A program made the position numbers and the translations under genes. 28,162 bases of DNA from a virus: positions 1 through 28,162 of the IMG/VR virus record IMGVR_UViG_3300021520_000010; one strand, written 5' to 3'. Below the pieces are notes generated by a model. The model saw nothing but the letters and a program-made list of their open reading frames with translations. It had not been told where the DNA came from and did no database searches. Below, piece by piece: positions 8,689 to 28,162 of the stretch (within the stretch, counting starts at the first letter, position 1; each line of letters starts with the position of its first letter).

Positions 8689-8952
8689 ATGAAACAAACC
8701 ATGTTATTCGCGCTGATCCTGTTAGTGATGGGATGCGCCAAGTCAAGCACACAGCCGCAGCAGACCGCTCCGATAGAACCCAAAAAGATTTGCGTGGAGT
8801 GTATCGTTAACCAGGGATATGTCAATCCAGAACCTGCACTGTTCTGCTCGACAGATACAAACCAGGTAAACTTCTATATAACCACCATGAACGCCATCAC
8901 GGGAGTGAATAGCCCGACCCACATCTATACTTGCAAGGTTGTTAATAAGTAA
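8689..8952 (+). CDS. Small phage lipoprotein, possible superinfection-exclusion factor
   Basis: An 87-residue precursor. A short basic start is followed by a hydrophobic segment (MLFALILLVMG) and a lipobox LVMG-C, with Cys16 as the lipidation site. The mature part has four more Cys (two in ICVEC, one in LFCSTD, one in YTCK) that could form two disulfides. The second ATG at 8701 gives an equally good signal and avoids a leaderless start. It has its own promoter and a terminator, so it is a separate unit between two unrelated operons. Phage lipoproteins such as T5 Llp block receptors after infection; that role here is inference. An outer-spanin role is less likely because no inner partner is adjacent. 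Confidence 0.72.
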   Translation: MKQTMLFALILLVMGCAKSSTQPQQTAPIEPKKICVECIVNQGYVNPEPALFCSTDTNQVNFYITTMNAITGVNSPTHIYTCKVVNK

Positions 8953-13288: not shown

Positions 13289-13798
13289 ATGAAAAAATTA
13301 ATCTCATTACTCTGCGCCTTGTTGATCTCGACGGTTTTACTTGCGCAGACAAACACAATCACGATGGTGCCAGACACCGCCGGAACTATCATCGGAGTGG
13401 ATAACGCCACAACTACAGGCGGAAACATCCATAAGTTCACCGCCGGTGTAATCAATACCGGATATTCCGGATGGGCCGTTGAGGTCTACGTCACCACCTC
13501 AGGGACTCACGCCACTGACAGTACCCGTGTTGAAGTTTACGGGTCAATGGACGGGACGAACTATTTTAAAATTACCGACCTTGGAACTCCTTGGTTGCTT
13601 GGTACAGCTAAGTATCGTGCCGGAACAGACTTGGTTGGTTATAAATTATCCAGTGAGGGTACAGGTGCAGTTGGGTGGGTATGGAAATCAGCAGCCCCCA
13701 TTACGTACCGATATATCCAGGTCAAGATTGCACAGTTAAAAAAGTTATCCATCCTGACGGTCAACCGATGCAAACTACATCTGTTTAAAAGTCAATAA
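13289..13798 (+). CDS. Secreted-type virion-operon protein with signal peptide; possible -1 frameshift near its end
   Basis: A 169-residue precursor. It begins with a clear Sec signal (MKKLISLLCALLISTVLLAQ, cut before or after Gln20). The rest is Thr/Gly-rich and strand-rich (VEVYGSMDGTNYFKITDLGT, YRYIQVKIAQ), like a jelly-roll or Ig-type surface protein. Codons TTA AAA AAG at 13736-13744 form A-AAA-AAG in phase, the classic -1 slippery heptamer. A slip gives the ending VIHPDGQPMQTTSV (stop 13786-13788) in place of LSILTVNRCKLHLFKSQ. The function is unknown. A Sec signal inside a head gene cluster is odd. Confidence 0.65.
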   Translation: MKKLISLLCALLISTVLLAQTNTITMVPDTAGTIIGVDNATTTGGNIHKFTAGVINTGYSGWAVEVYVTTSGTHATDSTRVEVYGSMDGTNYFKITDLGTPWLLGTAKYRAGTDLVGYKLSSEGTGAVGWVWKSAAPITYRYIQVKIAQLKKLSILTVNRCKLHLFKSQ

Positions 13799-13820
13799 TA
13801 TTCACTAACAAAGGGGCAAA

Positions 13821-14681
13821 ATGGCAAAATTAAGTAAAGAACTGGCCGCTGAGGCCATTAAGGGGATTGAAGGAGAAGAAGTTTATGTGTTCAGCACAAA
13901 GGAACATAATGAACTGCTTGATAATTACAAGAAGACCACGATTGAGGCAGAACTGAAAAGCCGTATCGCAAAGGTTTATGATGATGTTGATGCTGATTTT
14001 ACGACCGTAACGGGCCTAAAAAAGCCGGATGATCAAAAAACCTACAAATACTGGCCGGAAGTTGCGAAACAGTTGAAGGAAAAGGCTGATACCGCCGCCG
14101 CCGAAGTTGAGAAACTTAAAACAGGCGGTTCACCTGACCTGCTGAAGGAAATTGAAGCACTTCGCAAAGCTTCACTCGAAAAGGACAACGAATGGAAGGC
14201 AAAACTGGCAAAGGTTGAAACAGAATTGACCGTTAAGGACATTAAAAACACCCTGGATGCGTCGTTTCATGACCTTAAACTATCAAACTTGCCCAAACCA
14301 GTCCTTGACACGTTCATTGAAAGTGCAAAGAATAAACTGACACAATCAGCAAAGATTGTAAATGGGGAGATTGTTTTCATGGATGCCAATGGCGAACCCA
14401 GGATGAACAAGGAAACCTACAAGCCATACACCGCATCTGAGTTGATGGCGATGGAACTTGAACCGATTGTGGAAAAAGGGGATCAGCATAAAGGGGGAGG
14501 TTCGGCAAAGCCGGGTATCTCAAAAGACAAAGATGGGAAAATTGATGTAAGCCTGATGGTGCCCATAGCAGTAAAGACAAGGGTGGAACTCACGAAGTTC
14601 CTCATCGAGTCAGGACTGCCAAATAACACCGAAGAGTTTTTCGCAGCTTACGATAAGTATTCAGTTAATCTACCGATTTAA
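13821..14681 (+). CDS. Head scaffolding protein
   Basis: A 286-residue, mostly helical, charged protein immediately before the capsid gene, the usual scaffold position. Residues 85-150 form a long coiled coil (KQLKEKADTAAAEVEKLK, LLKEIEALRKASLEKDNEW), followed by a helical domain (LDASFHDLKLSNLPKPVLDTF) and a Gly/Lys-rich linker near residue 225. The C-terminal 40 residues end in a helix (VELTKFLIESGLPNNTEEFF), which could bind the capsid. No protease motif is seen. Scaffold is favoured over a minor head protein because of the coiled coil and gene order. Confidence 0.72.
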   Translation: MAKLSKELAAEAIKGIEGEEVYVFSTKEHNELLDNYKKTTIEAELKSRIAKVYDDVDADFTTVTGLKKPDDQKTYKYWPEVAKQLKEKADTAAAEVEKLKTGGSPDLLKEIEALRKASLEKDNEWKAKLAKVETELTVKDIKNTLDASFHDLKLSNLPKPVLDTFIESAKNKLTQSAKIVNGEIVFMDANGEPRMNKETYKPYTASELMAMELEPIVEKGDQHKGGGSAKPGISKDKDGKIDVSLMVPIAVKTRVELTKFLIESGLPNNTEEFFAAYDKYSVNLPI

Positions 14682-14728
14682 CAACGAACAGGGGCAGACA
14701 AAATTATTAACCTCTAAATTTTAAAAAA

Positions 14729-15751
14729 ATGGCTTATTTAGCAGCAACTGCCCTTCTGGAATACAGGCAGAAATACGCACAGTCCAATTTGGACAAGCAG
14801 GAGAACCGTGGAAGCGGATTCGGTCTGCTCTCTCTCGCCAAGCGCGACACGCCAAAGCTGATCACCCCACAGGCGCTTATCAATGCTCGTGGAACGGCTG
14901 CACGGTTAACCAAGGTTCCCGTATTACAGAAGATCACCTACACTCCTGGTTCAGCCCGTAGTTGTACCGGAGCCACCACAAATTCCGTTTCCGCGCTTGT
15001 CACAATCACATGGGTGACGTGGACCGCTGGTTTCCACATGGTTCCTTCGCAGTATGACAACAACGACATTGCCTACGTGGAGGATTTCAAAAACAAACTG
15101 TTTCACCTGGAGCGCAAACTCGCCGTTGACCTTGAGGGCGCCATCTACACCAAGTTGGACACCGTTAAGTCAACGTCATTCACCGCTGATGGTGCCCCGT
15201 TCCCTTTTACCGCGAACGTGATCACCGTACCGAACGCCGCGAAGAAAACCTACCTGAACGAAATCTATCAGTCTATGTATGCTGATGATTTCAATGGTCC
15301 GTTCAACATCGTTGGTTCACCAGCACTGATGAGCGCGAATGCGTTCTACAATAATCAGGGCGCCGGAAACCAGGAGAACACTATGTTCCAATTTGGCGAT
15401 TTCAACTTCGATTATTCCAACCGTGTCACCAAATCTGCTGGTGCGGAATCCACGTTCTTTGTGATGCCTCACGGTTCACTGGCTATCCTTGACTGGATTG
15501 ATCCGGATTCACGGGCTGGCAGAAGGATAAGCGAATCCAACTACTACACCTCGTTTAACCTTCCGATGGTTGGACTCAATGTAGGGTTACACGTTCAGAC
15601 CGCCTGCGCTGATAACACCACTGAAGCCGGAGCGGGACTGGAAGCATCTGTTACCGAGAACTACAACTTCTCCCTTGACTATGCGCTGATCACTCCGTAC
15701 ATCTCTGCCGGAGCCGGCCCGATCTTCAAGGCTGACATCACTACCCTTTAA
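14729..15751 (+). CDS. Major capsid protein
   Basis: A 340-residue protein following the scaffold. Features that fit HK97-fold capsids are an N-terminal helical arm (LLEYRQKYAQSNLDKQENRG), an extended loop with Gly, a spine-helix region (VEDFKNKLFHLERKLAVDLEGA, about residues 116-137), a P-domain segment (FNIVGSPALMSANAFYNNQG), and an axial-domain ending (NYNFSLDYALITPYISAGA). The codon use is richer in C-ending codons than its neighbours, as expected for a highly expressed gene. The call is by position, length and pattern; no single signature motif proves it. Confidence 0.78.
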   Translation: MAYLAATALLEYRQKYAQSNLDKQENRGSGFGLLSLAKRDTPKLITPQALINARGTAARLTKVPVLQKITYTPGSARSCTGATTNSVSALVTITWVTWTAGFHMVPSQYDNNDIAYVEDFKNKLFHLERKLAVDLEGAIYTKLDTVKSTSFTADGAPFPFTANVITVPNAAKKTYLNEIYQSMYADDFNGPFNIVGSPALMSANAFYNNQGAGNQENTMFQFGDFNFDYSNRVTKSAGAESTFFVMPHGSLAILDWIDPDSRAGRRISESNYYTSFNLPMVGLNVGLHVQTACADNTTEAGAGLEASVTENYNFSLDYALITPYISAGAGPIFKADITTL

Positions 15752-15833
15752 TTAGGGACCGTCACGGTTCAATGCGCTCGTACCTAACGAACCGCAATCC
15801 CTTCGGGGATTCACCTCCTTAATAGCAAGCCCA
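15752..15833 (+). promoter_or_regulatory. Structured leader between capsid and neck genes, with a UUCG hairpin and a 16S-tail-like sequence
   Basis: CGGTTC pairs with GAACCG about 20 bases later, and AATCCC-TTCG-GGGATT (15796-15811) is a perfect six-pair stem with a UUCG loop. Immediately after it comes CACCTCCTTAA (15812-15822), identical to the core of the 16S rRNA 3' tail. There is no T run, so it is not a standard terminator. It may be an RNA processing or stability element that lowers expression after the capsid gene. Confidence 0.4.
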
Positions 15834-17123
15834 ATGTTCAGTATAACAGACATACAAACCGCTTTTTCAGGATTAATCGGGTGGAGAGAATCTGTAAACA
15901 CCGAACTTCCGGCGCTTACAACGGCATTAAAAACCAGTACATCCGGCCTGTTTTACAACGACGCACACCCACTTATCACCCCAGAGAATCTTGACGCAGC
16001 CGGCCCGAATTATGACGGTGTAGCCAACGCAACCTGGGTGGCCGGCACAACTTATGCGATCGGAGCGGTTGTTCGGTATAACGGGGTGACATACACCTCA
16101 CTTCAGGCAGCGAACACAGGCAAGAACCCATCCACAGAGATTACATGGTGGAAAGCTCAGTTCAATCTATTCCTTGAACAATTAACCAACACCGCTATTA
16201 TCAATATGATTCAGCGGGTTATTAACGACAAACAACTCTCCGGGGCAAGTAAGGCGTTACTGGATGATGTGAAAATATTTGATGGAGATGGCCGGATAAC
16301 TTCATCTATTGTAACTCAGTCAAGGTTTGTCGGGTTTGAAATAAAAGTTAAAAATTATGAAGGCCTTATTGCGTCTATCACCCGTCTTGGGGCGCAGTTT
16401 ACAGAGGCACAATCCGGGCTTACGATTTATCTGTTCCATTCATCCCAGGACACGGCGGTTGCAACGTATTCACTAACCACAACGGTTGCAAAATCTATGC
16501 AGTGGCTGGTTCCAGTGGACCTCAATATGAACTTCTGCAAGTTTTCAAAGACTGACGCCGGAGGTGCATGGTACATCGGATATTTTGAAGATGATATTAC
16601 CGGACAGGCAATAAACCGAGATATTGATCTGGTTTCTGAACCATGCGGGACGTGTTTAAAGGATGCGTATAATCGGTTCTCATGGGAGATGAGAAGGAGG
16701 TTTTTTGAGATGACCCCCATTGCCATTGACTTTAAGTATCTCAATGGAGTATCGCTGCCAGACATGGATGGCGTTACTTATACCTCAAATGTAAATTGGG
16801 GACTGAATTTATCCATTACAGCTCACTGTGATCTGACTGATTTCTTTGTGGACAATAAGACGATATTTCTTCGGGCACTCTGGAAGCAGATGGCGCATGA
16901 CGTGATACGCCAGATCGCATTCTCTACCCGCATGGACGGTGCAATGCAAACACTTCGGTCAGACGCCTATATCGAACTCAAAGGCGATCCTACGCGTCCG
17001 TATAAGTCAGGATTGGAATACGAATTAACCAAGGAATACGAAGCATTGAATATTTCGACAGCGGATATAAACAGTCCGTGTTTTGGAAAGAAAAACAAGG
17101 GGATTAAGGTCGGAGGGATCTGA
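15834..17123 (+). CDS. Neck-region structural protein with an inserted CBM5/12-like sugar-binding module
   Basis: A 429-residue protein of a type recurrent after the capsid gene in Bacteroidota phages. Residues 1-60 (MFSITDIQTAFSGLIGWRES) are followed by a module at about 68-106 with the chitin-binding type 3 pattern: W-AGTTYAIGAVVRYNGVTY, then a NTG-NP turn and a final WW. The rest contains a LFDGDGR/SRFVGFEI-like core and a Cys-rich segment (EPCGTCLKDAYNRF, about 279-292). The module should put a carbohydrate-binding patch on the head-tail junction. The role of the main body is unknown; a connector or neck fibre base is inferred from position. Confidence 0.68.
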   Translation: MFSITDIQTAFSGLIGWRESVNTELPALTTALKTSTSGLFYNDAHPLITPENLDAAGPNYDGVANATWVAGTTYAIGAVVRYNGVTYTSLQAANTGKNPSTEITWWKAQFNLFLEQLTNTAIINMIQRVINDKQLSGASKALLDDVKIFDGDGRITSSIVTQSRFVGFEIKVKNYEGLIASITRLGAQFTEAQSGLTIYLFHSSQDTAVATYSLTTTVAKSMQWLVPVDLNMNFCKFSKTDAGGAWYIGYFEDDITGQAINRDIDLVSEPCGTCLKDAYNRFSWEMRRRFFEMTPIAIDFKYLNGVSLPDMDGVTYTSNVNWGLNLSITAHCDLTDFFVDNKTIFLRALWKQMAHDVIRQIAFSTRMDGAMQTLRSDAYIELKGDPTRPYKSGLEYELTKEYEALNISTADINSPCFGKKNKGIKVGGI

Positions 17124-17124
17124 C

Positions 17125-17565
17125 ATGACACTGGATGGGTTTATCGACATGGCTAAAAAAGTTGATATGTCGGTTATTATCAACCAGGCGGTTATGAGAA
17201 GTGAAGATCAGGTTATAAACCTAAACACAAAATCACAACTTAGCAACAGGGGGATAGGGAGTGACGGTACGCCATTAACACCGCCATATCGACCGCGAAC
17301 TATTGAGATGAAAAAACGAAAGGGACAAACTACTGCATTTGTGACAACCAGAGATACAGGAGAATGGCACGACAATTTTGAAATAATTTACAAATCAAAC
17401 CAAATAGAATTTACAGCACGTCCGACATTTCACCAGGGGGTTAATGTGACCCAATATTTGCAGAAACGGTACGGAAATAAGTTGTTTGGGTTGGTTGATT
17501 TCAATATAACAAAGTTACAGCAGATCATTTTACCGTCGATACTACAACAATTGCGCAATGGGTAA
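17125..17565 (+). CDS. Head-tail joining or tail completion protein (HK97 gp10-like candidate)
   Basis: The ATG at 17125 (146 residues) follows the previous stop by one base and has GGAGGG nine bases upstream, a rare Shine-Dalgarno match in this window; an earlier in-frame ATG at 17083 would overlap the neck gene. The segment LTPPYRPRTIEMKKRKGQTT, then TRDTGEWHDNFEI, resembles virion-morphogenesis and tail completion proteins that carry LxxTGxLxxSF. It ends with a helix and an 8-base overlap with the next gene. The assignment is by order and weak motif. Confidence 0.6.
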   Translation: MTLDGFIDMAKKVDMSVIINQAVMRSEDQVINLNTKSQLSNRGIGSDGTPLTPPYRPRTIEMKKRKGQTTAFVTTRDTGEWHDNFEIIYKSNQIEFTARPTFHQGVNVTQYLQKRYGNKLFGLVDFNITKLQQIILPSILQQLRNG

Positions 17566-18220
17566 GAAGGCACCAACAACATCAGGGGTTATCAATTCAA
17601 CCGGAACACAGTTGGGTTTGTTTAAAATTATGGAGTATATCGCAGGGGTATTTGATACAAAATTTAACGATTCCAATAAGTATGGAACATCGTCAGTCCC
17701 ATCTGAAACTATTTTACACTGCTTCGGATTGGTTGACCGGTACTCGCGGGCAGATGGAGAGGTAATTCCATTGGTTTACAACCAGGGCGGAACACTTCAA
17801 GACCCAATCGAATTGTTACCAACTGATCGGTGGGCAGGGTATATGTTTTTTGATCGTAACGAACCGATTATTTATTCTGTTCCACGGGATTATAATCAGA
17901 TGTCCGGGTGGGTAACGGAAACGGCAAAAGTGTCTATTATTTTCTTTTTCAACATGAAATTACAGAACTATTATACAAAATGGGGAAGTGATTATCGTAT
18001 TCAGAAAGAAACCATCCGGGAGCGGATATTAACAATCTTAACCAAAGAAACACCAAAAAAGGGAGGTCAATTTATCGTAAAATCATGCGTCGATACGAAT
18101 GTTGCAGAAGTATTTAAAGGGTATGCAGTTCAAGATTCAAAATACATTGCTGATTTACAACCATTCTATTCACTTCGTTTCGAAGTAGAAATATCATATT
18201 CACAACCTTGTAGTGTATGA
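17558..18220 (+). CDS. Tail-region structural protein, possible tail terminator
   Basis: A 220-residue strand-rich protein (ETILHCFGLVDRYSRADGEV; YDQMSGWVT-type segment; FYSLRFEVEISYSQPCSV). No motif identifies it. In related gene orders the slot between a gp10-like protein and the tail chaperones holds the tail terminator and the tail tube protein, so either is possible. It overlaps the previous gene by 8 bases and the glycosyltransferase by ATGA. Its sequence is AT-richer than the capsid gene. Confidence 0.55.
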   Translation: MGKKAPTTSGVINSTGTQLGLFKIMEYIAGVFDTKFNDSNKYGTSSVPSETILHCFGLVDRYSRADGEVIPLVYNQGGTLQDPIELLPTDRWAGYMFFDRNEPIIYSVPRDYNQMSGWVTETAKVSIIFFFNMKLQNYYTKWGSDYRIQKETIRERILTILTKETPKKGGQFIVKSCVDTNVAEVFKGYAVQDSKYIADLQPFYSLRFEVEISYSQPCSV

Positions 18221-19074
18221 CCAAACTCTCGGTAGCCATAATCGCCCGTGACCGACAGACAGAGATAGAAACCTGCCTGAAATCGGTGCGTGGATCCGAT
18301 GAGATTATTGTGCTCGACACCGGATCAGTTGATAAAACACCGCAGATTGCCATTGCTAACGGCGCAAAGGTGTTCTACTCAAGGTGGGAAGATGATTTCG
18401 CGGCAGCACGGAACAGGTGTCTCGACTATGTTCACAATCCGTGGGTGTTGTCGATAGATACAGATGAGGTTCTGTCAACCGGGATAGAGTCGGTGTATAA
18501 TTTCATCAACCGGAATTTCGCGTCAAAGGTTGTGGGAGTTAGGATTGATCAACCAAATGGAACCTCGTTTTATGGAGCAAGACTATTCAGAAAAGAATCA
18601 GCGCACTGGCAACGTGAAATCCACGAAGAACTTGACCGCCAGGCGGATATGGTCACAGATGAAGTTACGATACAACATAGACCCGCCAAGGACCATGCCT
18701 CCAATCCCGACCGGAACATTACGATTCTTCGCAGAGTTTTAGAAAAGAATCCACGATCCAAAATGGACGTGTATTACCTGGGGGAAGAATTGTTCAACCT
18801 GGAACAGTACGACGCTGCACTGTACTGGTTGCAGTATTACACCGAATTAGACCCGGTATCACCGAACCTGACAACCGAGGCGTTATACCTCACTGCTGAA
18901 TGCTATTGCCGTCTACACCGCGTATCCAATGGGATTGACGCCATTGCAAAGGCTACAAAGATCAACCCGGAAATGAAGGTATTGTACGGAAAAATGTTTG
19001 ATTTGACAAAGAATGACAAATGGAAGGCGCTTGAAAAAAAAGCTACTAATCGCAATGTATTAAAACTGAGATGA
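18217..19074 (+). CDS. Family 2 glycosyltransferase with TPR-like tail, inside the tail operon
   Basis: A 285-residue enzyme of the SPO/SpsA-like family 2 type. MTKLSVAIIARDR and IIVLDTGSVDKT (residues 30-41) form the nucleotide-sugar site, LSIDTDEVL (79-87) carries the DxD metal motif, and WQREIHEELD (131-140) is the conserved acceptor-side segment of this group. Residues 180-260 are helical repeats resembling TPRs (YYLGEELFNLEQYDAALYWL). Coupled ATGA overlaps at both ends place it firmly in the tail operon, so it is likely made with virion proteins and may glycosylate one of them. Modification of the host surface is an alternative. Confidence 0.82.
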   Translation: MTKLSVAIIARDRQTEIETCLKSVRGSDEIIVLDTGSVDKTPQIAIANGAKVFYSRWEDDFAAARNRCLDYVHNPWVLSIDTDEVLSTGIESVYNFINRNFASKVVGVRIDQPNGTSFYGARLFRKESAHWQREIHEELDRQADMVTDEVTIQHRPAKDHASNPDRNITILRRVLEKNPRSKMDVYYLGEELFNLEQYDAALYWLQYYTELDPVSPNLTTEALYLTAECYCRLHRVSNGIDAIAKATKINPEMKVLYGKMFDLTKNDKWKALEKKATNRNVLKLR

Positions 19075-19490
19075 TAACCACCGAACTGAATGGACATAAG
19101 ATAACGACATGGGAGAGTATTGATGAACTCCCGATCAGCAGGTTCTCGGCATTCAACCGATACCTGATGTTGTCAGATGGGATGGGTTCGTCGTTCTCGG
19201 ATATTGAAAGCACCCACATCCGCCCGCTGGTTCAGATCATCGAAGATAAAACCAGGGCATTACAGCAGATTACTAACCTTAGAGAATTAATATTCAACAT
19301 ACTGAATGGGTTGAACTTTGAACATCGGGCATACTGTGTTCTGATTCATTCGATTGACGGGGAGGTGCTGACGGGATATTCAGAAACGGATGTCGATGAG
19401 ATACTGAAAAGGCTTGACAAGATTGGCGTGACGAATGAGTTGGTTAAAAAAAAAATGACAGCACAAAACGAAACTGTAACGAAGAAATGA
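19071..19490 (+). CDS. Tail assembly chaperone, gpG-like
   Basis: A 139-residue helical protein just before the tape measure gene region, the position of lambda gpG. It is acidic with long helices (EDKTRALQQITNLRELIFNI). Near its end the codons GTT AAA AAA AAA ATG form a run of ten A (19446-19455). A -1 slip there enters a frame that stays open into the next gene, making a longer gpGT-like fusion of about 244 residues. The gpG/gpGT arrangement is widely conserved in long-tailed phages. Here it is inferred from position and frame logic. Confidence 0.7.
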   Translation: MITTELNGHKITTWESIDELPISRFSAFNRYLMLSDGMGSSFSDIESTHIRPLVQIIEDKTRALQQITNLRELIFNILNGLNFEHRAYCVLIHSIDGEVLTGYSETDVDEILKRLDKIGVTNELVKKKMTAQNETVTKK

Positions 19491-19804
19491 ACAAACTATT
19501 CCCGGAGCAATCGGGGAATATGATGGAAACCAATTATTACGAAAAAATTAAACAGAGAACAATACTCATTGGTGAGCAGATAATTGAGGATGATGAACAC
19601 AATAAGGAATCAATCGAAGAGATCAATAGGTGGCTGGCCGGTCAGATTCGTCCGCGTGACCTGGTTAAAGCTGAACTGGACATGATCAAGTCGTTTGAGG
19701 AGATGTGTGTGATCATTCAGAAAGAGGGTCACGGAAGAGTAAAGGACATGACGGTAATGGAGTTTTACACGGTTATAGGGTTGATTAAGAAAAAGAAAAT
19801 CTGA
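19487..19804 (+). CDS. Tail assembly chaperone extension, gpT-like (105 residues if started separately)
   Basis: ATG at 19487 overlaps the previous stop by ATGA. The frame is also open upstream to the A-run at 19446-19455, so it can be made as a -1 fusion to the gpG-like protein. The product is helical and charged (YEKIKQRTILIGEQIIEDDE; DLVKAELDMIKSFEEMCVII), as expected for the T domain that recruits tube protein to the tape measure. Its stop shares one base with the tape-measure start (TGATG at 19802-19806). Confidence 0.65.
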   Translation: MNKLFPEQSGNMMETNYYEKIKQRTILIGEQIIEDDEHNKESIEEINRWLAGQIRPRDLVKAELDMIKSFEEMCVIIQKEGHGRVKDMTVMEFYTVIGLIKKKKI

Positions 19805-22800
19805 TGAGTAACCCAATAAAACATAATGAGATAGTCGAATCGGGTAATCCGTTTGAGGAAGCCATTAACGGGGCGAAGGAACTGATGGCCGTAATGAATA
19901 AACTCAAGGCGGAGGCCGTTGCATTGACTAAATCAATGGTCGCATCTCAGCGAACCACACCGTCGAATACCAAGGCCGGTCAGGGTGGAATATCCAACGG
20001 GGCGGAAGATATTGTCAAGATGCAAGCCACGATCAATAAGTTGAACGCGGAGATTGCGGAACTGACCCGGAAATATAACTCGTTAACCCAGGCGTCAAAG
20101 AATTACAACACCGCCGTTCAGAAACTTACCGAGGAGGAAAAGACACTCATCAAGTTAGAACAGTTAAAGGCGAAGGAACTATCCGCGCTGAACGGTTCGT
20201 ATGCGAAACTTTCCGCGTCAATGGCTCGGATGAAGTACGAACAGAAGAACTTCCATGAGGTCGGAACTGCCGGATATAAGAAACTTGACGCTCAAATCAA
20301 CCAGGTTGACAAATCGCTGAAGAAACTCGATGCTGCTCACGGTGTATTCGGTCGCAACGTAGGAAACTATGTTTCAGCGGTCCGTAACGCATGGATGGGA
20401 ATCACTACAGCTATGGCCGGCACATTTTACGCAGTCAAGAGGTGGGTGATGATGAATGCCGAACTGTCCGATTCGATGGCGGCGGTTCGCAGGACAACCG
20501 GGATGACGCAGGTGGAGGTGAATAACCTGAACGAACGGTTACGCACACTGAACACCCGAACTGCACAGAACTCGCTGCTTGACCTTGCCCACGTTGCCGG
20601 TAAACTCGGTATTGCTAAAGATGAGATATTCGGATTCGTCAAGGCTGCCGACATGATCGGAGTGGCACTGGGCAAGGATTTGGGGAATAATGAAGAGGCG
20701 ATCAACCAACTTGGTCGTATCGTTCAGATATTTAAGGTTTCAGAGGGTGGTGTTGGAATGGAAAAAGCCTTACTGAAGGTTGGGTCCGCGCTGAAAGATT
20801 TGGGCAATGCGTCCGTGGCAGAAGAAACCAATATTATCGACTTTACGAAACGAATGGGTGGGTTGGCGTCAGTCACCGGCGTTTCGATTGATAAGATTAT
20901 GGGTCTTGGTGCCACTATGGATATTCTTGGTCAGACGATGGAGGTTTCATCGACCGCTGTCAACCAGATTTGGATCGGGATGGCTCAAAAGACCGAGAAG
21001 TTCGCCAAGATTGCAGGAATGTCGGTCTTGGATTTCAAAAAGTTAATGACCAGGGATTTCAACGAGGCGTTCATTGCCGTAGCGGAAGGATTACAGAAAT
21101 CCAAGGGTGGTGTATTTGAACTGGCTGAGTACTTCAATGGATTAGGTTTGGATGGTAGAAGGTTGATTGGGGTTATGTCGGTTCTGGCCGGGAATATCGG
21201 TCAGTTCAGAACGCAGATGGATATTGCCAAGAAATCACTGGATGCCGGTACAACTGCCGGACAACAATTTGCAATTCAAAATGAAACACTTGCGGCATCT
21301 ATTGACAAGGCAACTAAGGCGTTTAACAATTTCGTTGCCAATTCTGGAATACTTACATTAATGCAACAGGCGGCACAAAAAATGGCTGCAAGTTTTGACC
21401 AGATGTCTATCAGTGCCAGTATTGTAAAAATGGCACTTTCGGGTGGACTTGTCGGAGCATTTAAACTCAATGTACCGTCAACAGAAGAAGAATTACAGGG
21501 TAAAAAATCCGAAGCAAGTAAGACTAAGAATGAAACACTTCGCCGTGGGTTGATGATGGAAATTAGCCTTGGCGAAAAAGTGTTGGAGATTGAAAAGTTA
21601 CGCAGGAAGAACCAAGAGGCAATATCCAAGTTAAAACAGGATGAGTTGCAGCGAATGTTGGCTCAGGGACTTTTAAACCCCGATGGGTCAAAGAAAACCA
21701 AAGCTGAGATTAACGCTGATAAACTTGCATCACGTGAAGCCGCAAAAGCATTAAAGGAGCAGCAGAAACTCGAAGAGGAATATTATCAGTTTTTACTGTC
21801 TATTAATAAAGTAACAACTCAGGAAATAATAGATCACGAACGTAAAAAACTGATCGAGCAGGGTGTTTGGAAGAAAGCAACTGTCGAGGAACAGGCACAA
21901 TGGGAATACCAGATTAAGAAAAAGTACGCAGAGAAGGACTTTTCTGATACGATGGTACGTGTTAGTAACCTCATGGGTATTCTCCGGTCTGTCAACGGTT
22001 CCAAAGATTTCAAGGGTGGCAAATACAACATCCCGTCCGGTCCCAACGGTGAGAATCCCGGATTGATGCAGGGAGGATTACCCACACCGGAAGGATTACG
22101 CCCGATGGACGACAGGTCAGGCGATTTGGCAAAAGGATTAAAAGCACTGTACGATTACAACGCCGGTGGACCGCTGGATGTCGAAACATGGCAGGACAAG
22201 TTCAAGAAGATCGTTGCGGTTGTTCAGGAATTTTCACAGCAGGTCAGTAATCTGCTCGGTTCTATATCGGCCAACTACCAGGTCAACATGGAGAACGACC
22301 TTGCTGCATCCGAAGCCAAGTACACCAAGGAATACGAAATGCTTGACCAGGCTGTTGCCGGTAAAACCATGTCTGAACGCAACGCCGCCAATCAGAAACT
22401 TGCGCTCGAAAAGAAACAGAAGGCCGAACAACTGCGCATCGAAAAAGAGCACAAGAAGAAACAGCAAGACCTCGCCTACATCCAGGCGATCATCAATATC
22501 GCGCAGGGTGTGACGATGAGTATAGCTCAGATGGGTATGCCACTCGGCCTGATCGGTGCGGCAATGGCAATCGCAGCCGGAGCCATCGAACTCGACACCA
22601 TCAGTTCACAAAAGTTTGCCAAGGGCGGTTCGGGTGAAGTACTCAAGGGTGCGCGTCACTCCCAGGGTGGTATAAAGATACCCGGCGTCGGTGAAGCTGA
22701 GGGCGGTGAATACTTCGCCATCATCAACCGTGAAGCAACACAGCGGTACAGTAATGAACTGCCGGTTCTGTTCGATTCGATCAACAACCAGCGGTACGAT

Positions 22801-22974
22801 CAGTTGTTCTCAAAGAAAGGTATGCCGACGGTAAACGTGAATGTAAATGACCGGTATGGCGAAAAGATGCTGGCTGAGATGAAGAAAACCAAGGCTGAAA
22901 CGAGGGTGTATAACGAGGGCAACTTCACTGTACATGAAACAGGAAATTACAGATTTAAAACAAGCAGGCAATAA
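19804..22974 (+). CDS. Tail tape measure protein
   Basis: A 1056-residue protein that sets tail length. Residues 20-190 are coiled coil (NKLNAEIAELTRKYNSLTQA). Residues about 195-480 form a TP901-type core (MSDSMAAVRRTTGMTQVEV-like segment, GKLGIAKDEIFGFVKAADMI). A coiled middle follows, and near residue 900 a hydrophobic hairpin (GLIGAAMAIAAGAIEL) sits before a C-terminal domain with KGGSG..LKG..HSQGGIKI, typical of Bacteroidota tape measures. At about 1.5 angstrom per residue this predicts a long flexible tail of roughly 150 nm, so a siphovirus. Codon use changes inside the gene near 21250 and 21950. Confidence 0.88.
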   Translation: MSNPIKHNEIVESGNPFEEAINGAKELMAVMNKLKAEAVALTKSMVASQRTTPSNTKAGQGGISNGAEDIVKMQATINKLNAEIAELTRKYNSLTQASKNYNTAVQKLTEEEKTLIKLEQLKAKELSALNGSYAKLSASMARMKYEQKNFHEVGTAGYKKLDAQINQVDKSLKKLDAAHGVFGRNVGNYVSAVRNAWMGITTAMAGTFYAVKRWVMMNAELSDSMAAVRRTTGMTQVEVNNLNERLRTLNTRTAQNSLLDLAHVAGKLGIAKDEIFGFVKAADMIGVALGKDLGNNEEAINQLGRIVQIFKVSEGGVGMEKALLKVGSALKDLGNASVAEETNIIDFTKRMGGLASVTGVSIDKIMGLGATMDILGQTMEVSSTAVNQIWIGMAQKTEKFAKIAGMSVLDFKKLMTRDFNEAFIAVAEGLQKSKGGVFELAEYFNGLGLDGRRLIGVMSVLAGNIGQFRTQMDIAKKSLDAGTTAGQQFAIQNETLAASIDKATKAFNNFVANSGILTLMQQAAQKMAASFDQMSISASIVKMALSGGLVGAFKLNVPSTEEELQGKKSEASKTKNETLRRGLMMEISLGEKVLEIEKLRRKNQEAISKLKQDELQRMLAQGLLNPDGSKKTKAEINADKLASREAAKALKEQQKLEEEYYQFLLSINKVTTQEIIDHERKKLIEQGVWKKATVEEQAQWEYQIKKKYAEKDFSDTMVRVSNLMGILRSVNGSKDFKGGKYNIPSGPNGENPGLMQGGLPTPEGLRPMDDRSGDLAKGLKALYDYNAGGPLDVETWQDKFKKIVAVVQEFSQQVSNLLGSISANYQVNMENDLAASEAKYTKEYEMLDQAVAGKTMSERNAANQKLALEKKQKAEQLRIEKEHKKKQQDLAYIQAIINIAQGVTMSIAQMGMPLGLIGAAMAIAAGAIELDTISSQKFAKGGSGEVLKGARHSQGGIKIPGVGEAEGGEYFAIINREATQRYSNELPVLFDSINNQRYDQLFSKKGMPTVNVNVNDRYGEKMLAEMKKTKAETRVYNEGNFTVHETGNYRFKTSRQ

Positions 22975-24986
22975 TGGGGCTGAATAAGTATAAATATTTC
23001 ATTTCACTTGACGGGGGTGTAATGTACCGACAGGTCACGCTTGTTAAGCCCATCCTGGTAAGTGGCAAAAAAGAGGACACATCGTTTCGATATTCGCTGA
23101 AAACATCACCGTGGAAGATGGTCAGATATGAGAATACGTTTGTTTATGATCACTTCATAGTATTACTTGTTTCACCGTCAACACTTTTAAATGAAATTAT
23201 TGTAAAATGTGAACTGTGGGACGATTGGGAAAATTTCACCAAAATAATTTATATTGGCTATGTGCCGCTATCCGGAATAGCCGTAAACCAGGACAATGGT
23301 ACTATTGAAATTACCCCATCGGAACGGTCTGACTATGACTGGTATGATCAGCATAAAAACGACAAGCATGATATTTACAACGAGATCAATGGTACTTATG
23401 AATCGCTGAGTTACCATGTTGATACTGTAACTGAAGAGTATTGGGTGTATGGGTCGGAAGATTACTTATGTCCTGAAGGATTTGCGGAGGAAATGATTTC
23501 TGGTATTCCGTTTGATGCCGGAAAAGATTATGTTCCGCTGTGGACTGAGGATTCATGGTGTACCTACGCATTGCAACTATACCACTGCGTAAGTCCTACA
23601 AATGGAAACCTCCCTACCGATACGGATTACTGGGAGTTGATAGATGAACTGCACGGTGGTCCGATTCGTAGAATCCGGCACATCTTCAGAGAAACCTCCG
23701 ACCTTCCATTCTACGACCAACACGACGTGGCCGGACTGTTCACTCAGGGGAATGGGTATTTTCAGCCGGGATTTCCTGTCGTTACGGCGTTAAATCCAGG
23801 GTGGCCAGACATTGATTACACCAATCTTGTTTCAACGCGTTGGTCTGCAACAACCGATATGCACGGAAATGACGATATGGTCTTGTGCGGAAGTCCATCT
23901 CCTGCGCTTAATAAGGTATCTACCGGCCCAAATCACTCTGTCATTCATGTGCTGAAACATATGTTGCAGATCAACTATGAGGAAATGACTTTCCTGGATG
24001 GGTCTGGCCTGACCATCTCATCTGATTTCCTGACCAGTGCAACCGACCCAATCAAGGGCGGTACGAACCATTACTGCAACCTTCGCCTGGTTCACAACCG
24101 TTCGATCAAAGGCATTCAGGATATTGAAACCAAGGGCGAGATGACCCTCGAGCAACTGATTCGTGACTTGTGCGAGTCGCTCCAACTAAGCTGGTGCATC
24201 ATCGACACGACGCTCTATATCGAGCATATCAACTTCTTTGTAAACGGATTTACTTATACCGGAACACAGACGATCTACACCGACCTGACCGACCAGACCA
24301 AGTACCCGGTAAAATACCAAGTCGTTACCGATCCTGACGGAACATCGTCTGACCGAGAGCACAAATATGTTCTTACTGATTGCCCGGAGAAAGAAATATT
24401 CCACTTTCCTGACGGATATGATTATGACGGACAGATTCGGTACGATTCAAAATTTGTAAAGAAAGGCGGGGAACTGAAGCACGACATATCGGTGTTTATG
24501 ACTGATTTTGCCTATGTTCTCGGGTATCGTATGGATTCACTGGATGATTGTTGGTGCCTTATTGCTGCCGGCGTTTCTGCGGATGGAACCGCGCTGATAT
24601 GGCGCAGGGCAACAGGGCTTAGATGGGTGCAAAGCCCGATATATCTAAGTAATAATTTCTTCCGCAGAACGGAGAGTGTCGCAGTTACCGGATTTAATTA
24701 TCCAAACGGGGATCTTCAGTGGAACAATATACTTAATGATCTATGGGATTACCAGACAATATTTCAAACAGGGGCAATAAACGGGTGTTACCCATCGGTT
24801 ACATTCAATGAACCGTTCAAGCGAATTAAACAACAGCGCGAACTCCGGTTTCCACGGGTTGAATCCGGGGAGTTTAATCCGTACAATCTAATCACTACGA
24901 ATATAGGTGACGGGCAGGTTGAATCATTCGAGATTGACACGGACACTGACTTTATTAAAGTTCAACTGCTTTATGAAGAATCTTAG
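22974..24986 (+). CDS. Tail tip or hub protein with a CBM-like insert
   Basis: A 670-residue protein directly after the tape measure, the place of distal tail and hub proteins. The N-terminal 120 residues are strand-rich (KYKYFISLDGGVMYRQVTLV; TIEITPSERSDYDW). Residues about 180-222 carry a second sugar-binding-like module: YALQLYHCVSPTNGNLPTDT ending in DYWELI, the Y-C ... G-N-P ... YW pattern of CBM5/12 relatives. The rest includes LEQLIRDLCESLQLSWCIID, as in hub proteins. It starts in a one-base TAATG overlap. Function at the tip is inferred from order. Confidence 0.65.
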   Translation: MGLNKYKYFISLDGGVMYRQVTLVKPILVSGKKEDTSFRYSLKTSPWKMVRYENTFVYDHFIVLLVSPSTLLNEIIVKCELWDDWENFTKIIYIGYVPLSGIAVNQDNGTIEITPSERSDYDWYDQHKNDKHDIYNEINGTYESLSYHVDTVTEEYWVYGSEDYLCPEGFAEEMISGIPFDAGKDYVPLWTEDSWCTYALQLYHCVSPTNGNLPTDTDYWELIDELHGGPIRRIRHIFRETSDLPFYDQHDVAGLFTQGNGYFQPGFPVVTALNPGWPDIDYTNLVSTRWSATTDMHGNDDMVLCGSPSPALNKVSTGPNHSVIHVLKHMLQINYEEMTFLDGSGLTISSDFLTSATDPIKGGTNHYCNLRLVHNRSIKGIQDIETKGEMTLEQLIRDLCESLQLSWCIIDTTLYIEHINFFVNGFTYTGTQTIYTDLTDQTKYPVKYQVVTDPDGTSSDREHKYVLTDCPEKEIFHFPDGYDYDGQIRYDSKFVKKGGELKHDISVFMTDFAYVLGYRMDSLDDCWCLIAAGVSADGTALIWRRATGLRWVQSPIYLSNNFFRRTESVAVTGFNYPNGDLQWNNILNDLWDYQTIFQTGAINGCYPSVTFNEPFKRIKQQRELRFPRVESGEFNPYNLITTNIGDGQVESFEIDTDTDFIKVQLLYEES

Positions 24987-26079
24987 TACGATACTGCCCT
25001 TTTACGATACACTTGCCGAGCAATACCGGTTTCGTGAAGATTGTGATGTTGAACCGTGTCTGGTTTCACTTGACACCGCATTAATACCGTTTTGCATACG
25101 CCGAACGCATAATGCCGGCACCGACCCGTCAAGCATTAATGTTTTCATAACTCCTGTCAAAAATCCAGGTGCTACGATTAACACACCGCCACCTCCTTGG
25201 CCTCCGGGACACCCAATAGAAATTCATGGTGAAGATTTTGGTATCGTTATTATTCCGGGGACTACATATGATATAATTAGTTACGCGGGTGTAGCGTTGG
25301 GGGGCACAATCCCTCATGCTAATGGGGGGTATTACTTAGAAATTGTGGATTTGGAAGTTGATAAGCATTGGTTCTCTGAGACTTTCATTGTGACTAATGT
25401 TGTTTTGGATTACCTTAAACTAGAGTTTTATAACACCACTGAACTTTCACACATCCCGGCAAATTTTCACCAAATCATATATCTCAACTCAACACTTAAA
25501 ACCCCGGAATACCTGCGGGAGGACACGGGTGATAAACGTGATGGGTTGACAGTAAAAGAAAAGCAGGTCATGATGAAGTCATACGCACTTCGATCATTGC
25601 TCGCCACGGAATACCTGGTTGACGCACTTATGCTCGTTCCATTAATGGACTATGTTTCCATTACGGTACAATCCGGTGAGGTTCTGACATTCGACGAAGT
25701 TCGCATCAAAGACCCCGAATGGAGTGCAGAAGCATTGGGTTCGCGGGCTAAAGTTGAACTGCAATTAATCCGAGATGTTGTTATTAAGAAATTATCATTC
25801 AAAGAAACCGGTTATGGAAATGGAGGTGACATGACAGCAATAGTAAAAGGAGGAATAGCAGAAACAACATTTCATTCTGGTGAATATGAGGTGCCTATAG
25901 TTTTTGACGAAGATATGCCAGTAGACACATACGGGTTGTCGGTATTTGCCATGTCGCTTGACACAATCCCAAATGTTCAAAACTGCTACATAAGGAACAT
26001 AACGACTCATGGATTTAATGCAGTTACACCAGTGCCATGTAACGTAAGGTGGACTGCCATATATAACCCAACAAGTTAA
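24973..26079 (+). CDS. Baseplate or tail-tip protein of unknown type
   Basis: The ATG at 24973 (368 residues) is preferred; an earlier in-frame ATG at 24907 lies deep in the hub gene and reads unlike protein. The first part (MKNLSTILPFYDTLAEQYRF) is followed by a strand-rich region with a proline run (NTPPPPWPPGHP, residues about 72-83). The C-terminal part (VLTFDEVRIKDPEWSAEALG, then VELQLIRDVVIKKL) resembles proteins seen after hub genes in Bacteroidota phages. It overlaps the hub gene by 14 bases. I cannot name the component. Confidence 0.6.
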   Translation: MKNLSTILPFYDTLAEQYRFREDCDVEPCLVSLDTALIPFCIRRTHNAGTDPSSINVFITPVKNPGATINTPPPPWPPGHPIEIHGEDFGIVIIPGTTYDIISYAGVALGGTIPHANGGYYLEIVDLEVDKHWFSETFIVTNVVLDYLKLEFYNTTELSHIPANFHQIIYLNSTLKTPEYLREDTGDKRDGLTVKEKQVMMKSYALRSLLATEYLVDALMLVPLMDYVSITVQSGEVLTFDEVRIKDPEWSAEALGSRAKVELQLIRDVVIKKLSFKETGYGNGGDMTAIVKGGIAETTFHSGEYEVPIVFDEDMPVDTYGLSVFAMSLDTIPNVQNCYIRNITTHGFNAVTPVPCNVRWTAIYNPTS

Positions 26080-26083
26080 AGAA

Positions 26084-26920
26084 ATGAAAAAAATACTTCT
26101 GTTTTTAATTCTATCATTTAGCGCCATCATCTCGATAGCACAATTTAATCCAACATACGATACCATCAGGTTTAAAGGTAGAACTGGAAAGTTATGGCAA
26201 ATCGTAACCTATGGAACCGCCGACCGGTTAATGGTTAACGGGATTATGTTCTACACTGGAGGAGCAGCCGAAACAGATCCGGTATGGTTGGCTCAGAAAT
26301 CAGACTATTATACTAAAACCCTCGGAGACGCCCGGTACGAATACAAGATCACTCCCGGAACATACCTCACCCCAGGAGGAACAGAAAACGTCACCGGGAT
26401 GAAACTATTCTATCATGGGATGTTTGTGTTAAACAACGCTTATGGCGACGGCCAGACTACTATAACAACCACTGCTGGGCATAGTGCTTTCCGGACGATT
26501 ACATTTCCGGATGCGAATGGAACAGTTGCTCTCACCACGAGCATTACTAATGTAACCCGATATTCTGCCTATTCAAGTGGAGGCATTAACGTGGAAGTGC
26601 TGGCTGCCGGGACTGGCATCACCGCCGCAATTGCCAATACCAACGAACTAACCTTCACCATACCATCCGGTGTGAAAATCATATCAGCAAAAATCCGGCT
26701 GACAACTGGCTTCTCAACCTTAAAAATATTCATGGGAACCACCGACATGGGCAATACCAGCGTGACGAATAGATGGATGCCAATAACCCAGGCATGGAGG
26801 GAAGATACCGGGCAACAGCTCACCGGAATGACAACCACTATGGACATGGCAACGTTCACGAAATTAACAGTCAATGGATTGATTTACTCGACAAACAACC
26901 AGATTCGCATAAGTTTCTGA
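26084..26920 (+). CDS. Fibre-like protein with signal peptide
   Basis: A 278-residue precursor starting MKKILLFLILSFSAIISIAQ, a clear Sec signal ending AQ. The mature part has features of tail fibres: the segment TDPVWLAQKSDYYTKTLGDA, common in phage fibre and Bacteroidota surface fibre proteins, then AFRTITFPDANGTVALTT, a fibre repeat phrase, and a Thr/Gly-rich C-terminus. It begins 4 bases after the previous gene and is followed one base later by the next signal-peptide protein. Host-receptor binding is inferred. Confidence 0.62.
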   Translation: MKKILLFLILSFSAIISIAQFNPTYDTIRFKGRTGKLWQIVTYGTADRLMVNGIMFYTGGAAETDPVWLAQKSDYYTKTLGDARYEYKITPGTYLTPGGTENVTGMKLFYHGMFVLNNAYGDGQTTITTTAGHSAFRTITFPDANGTVALTTSITNVTRYSAYSSGGINVEVLAAGTGITAAIANTNELTFTIPSGVKIISAKIRLTTGFSTLKIFMGTTDMGNTSVTNRWMPITQAWREDTGQQLTGMTTTMDMATFTKLTVNGLIYSTNNQIRISF

Positions 26921-26921
26921 A

Positions 26922-27584
26922 ATGAGAAAATATTTCATAGTACTAATCTTTCTAACATCATTTCTGGCGCGAGGACAGATTCTCGCACGATACGACGTCT
27001 CGGCAATAGAAGAAGTCACCTCATCACGGTGGCGGTTGACCGGGACAATATCGGATGAAACAGGATCATATACAGCATTGGACGCAGACATAAACAACAG
27101 GATAATCATGAGGGGAGTAAGCACAACCGGAAAAGTAGTATTTGACAGATTCGTTGTCGTTTCTGTCAATTCTGCTACCGTGACCGACCTAGTTGTTGAA
27201 GTTACGTCTGATATGGATGGTGGGGTAGTTCTAAATAATGCAGCAGGCCCCGTCACTGGAAACTTTCCTATTTGCACACCGATATTACTTTCCAAGGTTT
27301 TAAAACGGCCATCGGTCTACCAGGCTCAGATTGACCCGGATTATGACGCTGGCATTTCCAACCTAAACGCCGAGGAACAGGCTACCGTCGGCGCAAAGTG
27401 GGACGCTGAGTTATCAGCCAATGCGGAAAACAACTGGACAATCCCGTTCGCATTGAAATCAACAGCCACAATTTTATATAACGGCACTCCATTACGATCA
27501 GGCCAGTGGAGTGGGAGCGGTACAACAACGCTCAGCGTCACGCTTGACACTCGGAAATATGACAAATTAGTAATCATCAATTAA
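26922..27584 (+). CDS. Secreted-type protein of unknown role in the fibre region
   Basis: A 220-residue precursor starting MRKYFIVLIFLTSFLARGQ, a Sec signal with a likely cut near Gln19. The remainder is strand-rich with many Thr, Ser and Val (WRLTGTISDETGSYTALDAD; GKVVFDRFVVVSVNSATVTD) and then a helical stretch (ISNLNAEEQATVGAKWDAEL). No family recognised. Its place between two fibre-like genes suggests a fibre or surface component. Confidence 0.58.
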   Translation: MRKYFIVLIFLTSFLARGQILARYDVSAIEEVTSSRWRLTGTISDETGSYTALDADINNRIIMRGVSTTGKVVFDRFVVVSVNSATVTDLVVEVTSDMDGGVVLNNAAGPVTGNFPICTPILLSKVLKRPSVYQAQIDPDYDAGISNLNAEEQATVGAKWDAELSANAENNWTIPFALKSTATILYNGTPLRSGQWSGSGTTTLSVTLDTRKYDKLVIIN

Positions 27585-27596
27585 AATCAAAGCAAA

Positions 27597-28162
27597 ATGA
27601 AAAAGTTAGTATTATTAATCGCAATCGTTCTGGCCGCCTATGTAGGTTTTGGCCAGGCAACGCCATCAGGACAGTTAAGAGTGGCAGCATTCAATACTGT
27701 CTTTGGTGTAAGTGTTCCCGTTGGAACTCAAGTATATTGTGTGGCCACCGGTCGGCAATATACTTGTATCACCGCCACGCCATCAACTGGTGATTTGGCA
27801 ACCAACATTACCAATTTCAGGCTCACAAGTAACTATGCAGCACCGGCGACGGCCTTATCGTCTGGTGATAGTGTGGCTACCTACAACCGTACCACTGGGC
27901 AATATGAAATGAAGAAGATCACCTTCGGAACGGGGGCGGGTTCAGTTACATCTGTATCAGCAGGATTTGGTATGAATTTTACTACCATTACCACCACAGG
28001 GTCAGTGGCCGTTGACACAACAGTAATGGTAACGCAGAAGGATACTGCTACCGTTGGTGGAAAAATCGCAACAAAGTATAATGTTGCCCAAAAACTCGAT
28101 AAATCATTAACCAGCGCTCAGATTTTCGTCGGCAACGGCAGTAATGTCGCAGCAGGAGTCGC
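27597..28162 (+). CDS. Fibre-like protein with signal peptide (3' end cut by window)
   Basis: ATG at 27597; the frame is open to the window edge (188 codons visible). It starts with a Sec signal (MKKLVLLIAIVLAAYVGFGQ). The mature part contains YCVATGRQYTCITATPSTGD and later GAGSVTSVSAGFGMNFTTIT and AQIFVGNGSNVAAGV, phrases typical of Bacteroidota-phage tail fibres. The C-terminal receptor-binding part lies outside the window. Confidence 0.65.
   Translation, partial: MKKLVLLIAIVLAAYVGFGQATPSGQLRVAAFNTVFGVSVPVGTQVYCVATGRQYTCITATPSTGDLATNITNFRLTSNYAAPATALSSGDSVATYNRTTGQYEMKKITFGTGAGSVTSVSAGFGMNFTTITTTGSVAVDTTVMVTQKDTATVGGKIATKYNVAQKLDKSLTSAQIFVGNGSNVAAGV

Follow-up and report, generated by a model that had tools for sequence, protein, structure and literature searches.

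The window analysed here is the whole 28,162-base stretch of the virus record IMGVR_UViG_3300021520_000010 (IMG/VR), which is classed as linear and is therefore probably a fragment of a virus genome. On its plus strand lie four open reading frames (ORFs), named here by their start coordinates, whose products begin with a basic tip, a hydrophobic core and a small residue followed by glutamine, as predicted for a signal peptide of the host Sec pathway by a simple rule-based caller written for this analysis, which misses some true signals. The first of these (13289..13798) lies in the head module and encodes a beta-rich protein of 169 residues (signal peptide 13289-13345, glutamine codon 13346-13348). 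The others are consecutive: a two-part protein of 278 residues (26084..26920; signal peptide 26084-26140, glutamine codon 26141-26143), a protein of 220 residues (26922..27584; 26922-26975 and 26976-26978), and a protein cut by the contig end after 188 visible residues (27597..28162; 27597-27653 and 27654-27656), whose repeat-rich, fibre-like character was read by eye. Predicted cleavage falls between alanine and glutamine (A/Q) in 13289 and 26084 and between glycine and glutamine (G/Q) in 26922 and 27597. All four ORFs are present at these coordinates, are co-directional with the preceding genes, and begin 2, 4, 1 and 12 bases, respectively, after the preceding stop.

Calls of this kind (i.e. 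a signal with glutamine at +1, hereafter Q-type) were made in 4 of the 85 window ORFs of at least 60 residues. When residues 1–60 of each of the 33 predicted gene products were shuffled, the mean was 0.12 Q-type calls per set and the maximum 2, none of 1000 shuffled sets reaching four or more, and 60 dinucleotide shuffles of the window produced 7 Q-type calls in 4989 ORFs, with no more than 2 per shuffle. The original prediction that four proteins begin with Sec signals ending in AQ or GQ sites was thus borne out, since the rule called all four and shuffling never did. Glutamine at +1 is the Q-rule of signal peptidase I substrates in Bacteroidetes, seen in 59–77% of them in Porphyromonas species (PMC5837995), and formation of pyroglutamate stabilises Q-rule secreted proteins in P. 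gingivalis (PMC10653852). All four window proteins carry this mark, as do, by rule, 20 of 23 signal-bearing proteins from six related records; in the remaining three a glutamine followed the cleavage site on inspection or on reading from the ORF start. Rule calls on proteins with a hydrophobic start and a charged coiled stretch beside lysis genes were left out of the secreted count, as these were judged by eye, from position and sequence, to be probably membrane-anchored and spanin-like.

Profile matches to window proteins place a head and tail module on the plus strand from 10,500 onward, including a major head protein (phrog_8193), portal (phrog_7376), scaffold-like structural protein (phrog_7970), capsid (phrog_7231) and tape measure. 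Capsid relatives were found in 76 phage records, at 28–33% identity among the 40 matches listed, and came nearly all from phages of Flavobacterium, Bacteroides, Parabacteroides and Croceibacter, which makes a Bacteroidota host very probable. Scans of viral contigs with the single capsid, 27597 or 13289 protein found nothing, and relatives were then located using alignment-based profiles; the closest by capsid (41–45% identity) were G001 (L093), G002/G003 (L094, L095), G005 (L097), G010/G011/G012 (L170, L166, L167) and G004 (L096). The assignment of the four genes to a virion operon stood as far as gene position is concerned, with portal, scaffold-like, capsid and tape-measure genes on the same strand, but not by homology: comparison with known phage families gave no convincing match (the sole hit was 27597 to phrog_3641, E 0.037), no tail-fibre family matched any of the four in sequence, and a search of isolated phages with all four proteins returned no match.

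Immediately upstream of 26084 on the plus strand is the gene for a tail-tip protein (24973..26079, 368 residues; phrog_35885-type, E 4e-31) with a lineage-specific C-terminal extension (∼25843-26079). The gene that follows the tail tip had a Q-type signal in all five readable records of the lineage (the window, G003, G005, G010 and G012, the last two near-identical at this locus), as against none of 94 loci in distant relatives, a contrast that represents one lineage rather than independent events. The 94, which include duplicates, are those of 98 distant loci that had a tail-tip homologue and a readable next gene (L006, L007, L071 and L088 did not); two were flagged with a non-Q signal and most of the next genes were long. 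Neither a tail-tip homologue nor a Q-type signal was found in the tail region of G004, which was set apart from the count of five for its differing tail genes, a choice that favours the pattern. The tail-tip protein measured 368 residues in the window, 353 in G003 and 349 in G010, ending in a divergent domain of ∼75 residues, and the G005 homologue continues into a domain of this type across its contig ends; these share a 133-base overlap containing one mismatch, which makes that record a candidate circle only. In most distant relatives the protein has 283–298 residues and lacks the extension; those that depart from this, with matches stopping well short of the protein end, look like fusions or partial matches. 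We read the signal-bearing next gene and the tail-tip extension as a coupled change in one lineage, in which the tip may have taken over receptor binding or become a dock for exported fibres.

The 26084 protein itself is built of two parts. Its first ∼50 mature residues are common to three other phage lineages, where they always occupy the first gene after the tail tip and always stand behind a Q-rule signal; identity was 41% over 49 residues to G003 and 43% over 40 to G005, and the G010 N-terminus aligns with the same family (56% over 34 residues to G005). The rest of the gene differs in kind, with total lengths of 164 residues in G003, 240 in G005 and 1,655 in G010, the last matching Peptidase_S74 (E 6.6e-13) and tail-fibre profiles including phrog_5481 (E 4.7e-11). 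This long fibre is 99% identical between G010 and G012 over 1,036 residues, the remainder being cut off in G012. Standing next after the tail-tip gene and combining a conserved N-terminal part with a C-terminal part that varies, 26084 and its counterparts are arranged as tail fibres are. The AlphaFold model of 26084 (predicted local distance difference test score, pLDDT, 44.5) was too poor for a structure search.

An unrelated phage, L010, has a counterpart of the last ∼120 residues of 26084, 65% identical, in a protein that has no signal. This protein adjoins a signal-bearing homologue of 26922 (L010:8264-8953, 47% identical, LT/Q), the only homologue of 26922 found, and a profile of that family matched only the already-known viral contig and no bacterial genome locus. 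Because L010 holds the two homologues side by side, the 26084 and 26922 genes are read as travelling together, with the binding-type end placed on different starts. For 27597, no homologue was recovered in searches aimed at it.

In the head module, the 13289 family keeps its signal at 25–50% identity, with A/Q in all four rows of an alignment of four phages. With signals removed, BLASTP still linked 13289 to the G003 member (E 3e-4) and other members to one another (down to E 4e-39). The order portal, small gene, 13289-type gene, scaffold is the same in L093 (G001) and L097 (G005), the G003 gene lies upstream of a minor head gene, and G010 and G012 carry 256-residue versions, apparently with two domain copies. 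No family member was found in G004, and in both L096 (G004; capsid 42% identical) and L098 (34%) no signal gene lies between portal and scaffold. The AlphaFold model of 13289 (pLDDT 63) is a beta sandwich with weak beta-sandwich matches only in the PDB, none at E ≤ 0.001, and no function was read from it.

Runs of signal-bearing genes recur in the lineage. Four Q-type genes stand in a row in G005 between the tail tip and a lysis gene (amidase-like by eye), the same place as the run in the window, which strengthens the earlier argument that consecutive signals point to function. In G010 and G012 the run comprises three genes and lies in the head module; two of the three have homologues among the tail-end genes of G005. 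Since homologous exported-type genes sit after the tail genes in one record and in the head module in others, the signal-gene cassette is not tied to tail assembly. Between G010 and G012 the head-module cassette fibre is shared only at its N-terminal end (∼230 residues) and its C-terminal end (50 residues), within flanks 95–97% identical. After the signal-bearing tail fibre, the G010 record encodes a lipoprotein with a GH16 domain (L177:6259-7110) and an exported-type cohesin-domain protein (L177:7086-7586).

Several other genes were recorded in passing. Near the G003 terminase, on the opposite strand, L095:2324-3787 (minus strand) encodes a Q-type secreted protein of 488 residues, and in a distant relative the product of L164:11353-11832, beside lysis genes, is a Q-type secreted protein that, judged by eye, begins like a staphylococcal-type nuclease. 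Within the window, a family 2 glycosyltransferase gene (18217-19074; PF00535 E 1.6e-16, phrog_13126) lies midway through the tail module, a position that genes of similar appearance occupy in L093, L097 and L170; L095 has two other genes there, one with a Q-type signal. A small lipoprotein-type gene (8689-8952; LVMG/C) with weak lipoprotein/spanin profile matches directly precedes the terminase, and a structural protein (15834-17123; phrog_8189) matches the carbohydrate-binding module CBM_5_12 just over the Pfam cut-off.

Signals, the chance control, conservation, gene positions and the tail-fibre homology in one relative were computed directly, and from them we infer export, processing, timing, location and function. 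Persistence of the signals in relatives, whose loss would have counted against the original prediction, was seen in the homologues of 13289 and 26084 and in the sole homologue of 26922, the exception being the L010 protein, whose similarity to 26084 is confined to the C-terminal part. The +1 glutamine has survived deep divergence and is of consequence only once cleavage has occurred, so export is very probably real and very probably selected. The same conservation makes internal starts in virions, one of the options first put forward, less likely. Assembly of phage virions in the cytoplasm would sit comfortably with hydrophobic starts that do not serve export at all, the proteins entering virions from internal starts or keeping the segment as an uncleaved anchor, but a glutamine at +1 would then have no reason to persist across diverged homologues, and we consider this improbable. 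Equally improbable, in our view, is that these are host surface proteins which the phages acquired recently, signals included, and carry as cargo with no adaptation to a phage function. Peptidase_S74 proteins are encoded in 38 of 148 Bacteroidota genomes and, among 20 host ORFs read, 11 had Q-type signals by rule and 18 by eye (a measure of what the caller misses), so the domain is often exported in these hosts. However, profiles of the 26084 and 13289 types, each run against 395 genomes, found no convincing host homologue, and both families are common to several phages and diverged among them. Host hits ranged from E 1.6e-5 to 0.009 and mostly started at profile position 1, which falls in the signal; the best (L230, the only one inspected) was not convincing, as its match looks driven by the signal region.

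If exported, the four proteins would use the Sec machinery of the host, probably at a late stage of infection; signal peptidase I would remove the leader, and the exposed glutamine would probably be cyclised to pyroglutamate as in host proteins. They would be modular binders in which the N-terminus, a signal plus a dock, is conserved and the C-terminus, fibre-like or a beta sandwich, varies. Such proteins could act in the periplasm or at the surface of the infected cell by masking receptors, excluding other phages or altering cell adhesion. Our tentative preference, held at somewhat short of even confidence, is that they act there rather than being incorporated into virions in the cytoplasm, with a putative decoy or receptor blocker as the first choice of function. 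Such an envelope role has precedents, among them lambda Lom, and agrees with a cassette that moves between modules and with the G010 run, whose GH16 lipoprotein and exported cohesin-like protein suit it; the L010 protein that sets the 26084 C-terminal domain on a signal-less start beside a signal-bearing gene is also counted in its favour, and a signal-less protein of 1,379 residues also found at the post-tail-tip place in G003 speaks for it. Several observations weigh on the other side. The position of 26084 is held in distant relatives mostly by a long signal-less protein, probably receptor-binding, and in G010 by a tail-fibre homologue. No signal-less long fibre gene was seen in the G005 or G010 gene lists, so a purely envelope role would leave those virions with a short tip only. 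Lysogenic conversion is perhaps made less likely in that no integrase domain (PF00589) was found in any of the five records, although several of these are fragments.

These observations lend themselves to a different account, in which exported fibres fold and trimerise in the periplasm with an S74-type chaperone and dock on finished tails at lysis through the conserved mature N-terminus, perhaps on the lineage-specific tail-tip extension. We regard it as a less likely but serious contender. It would explain why the signal gene is the first after the tail-tip gene in every readable lineage record, why ∼35–50 mature N-terminal residues are conserved while the rest differs, as is usual for tail fibres, and why the tail-tip extension co-occurs with a signal-bearing fibre; the S74 and tail-fibre matches in G010, gene lists of G005 and G010 that showed no signal-less fibre gene, and the strain-to-strain variation of the head-module fibre C-terminal part between near-identical flanks also fit. 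On the other hand, G003 has its signal-less protein at the same place, homologous genes occur in the head module too, and we know of no tailed-phage precedent for such split assembly. The fuller version is slightly more doubtful still: Sec would export the adhesion fibres, signal peptidase (perhaps with glutaminyl cyclase) would mature them, folding would take place in the periplasm, and until lysis, when they would first join virions, the fibres might cover the receptors of the infected cell.

The fibres of tailed phages are assumed to be both synthesised and attached inside the cytoplasm. Conserved export signals on fibre-position genes would either break that rule or mean that fibre genes have been reused as shields or binders at the host surface. 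Within the open-licence literature, with subscription journals and bioRxiv largely outside it, no report was found of Sec signals on tail-fibre homologues in tail position. Targets of phage diversity-generating retroelements are stated to lack the signal peptides of their bacterial counterparts (PMC6199706), one or two signal peptides were counted in rumen Bacteroides phages (PMC5723332), and passages of PMC8143477 and PMC3338817 added nothing on fibres.

Three known systems bear comparison. The chromosomal secreted S74 proteins of Bacteroidota likewise combine a Q-rule signal with a Peptidase_S74 domain, but no such domain was detected in the window genes and only the related G010 fibre has one. 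Among phage envelope proteins are T5 Llp and Cor. Lambda Lom is a further, signal-bearing one (PMC12309495). The likeness lies in a signal-bearing protein encoded beside tail or fibre genes; Lom, Llp and Cor, however, are small outer-membrane proteins or lipoproteins, whereas those of the window lineage are fibre-like, with no integrase seen in related records. The closest parallel in signal type is offered by phages of P. gingivalis (proposed Nixviridae), which carry five Q-rule genes with no function assigned and for which use of host secretion was suggested (PMC10367356). Q-rule secreted phage proteins are thus known already, and it is signal-bearing fibre homologues at the tail position for which no earlier report was found. 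Both groups have phage Sec signals that expose an N-terminal glutamine; those phages insert into tRNA-pro genes, whereas in the window lineage a conserved cassette, with tail-fibre homologues among its genes, lies inside the head and tail modules.

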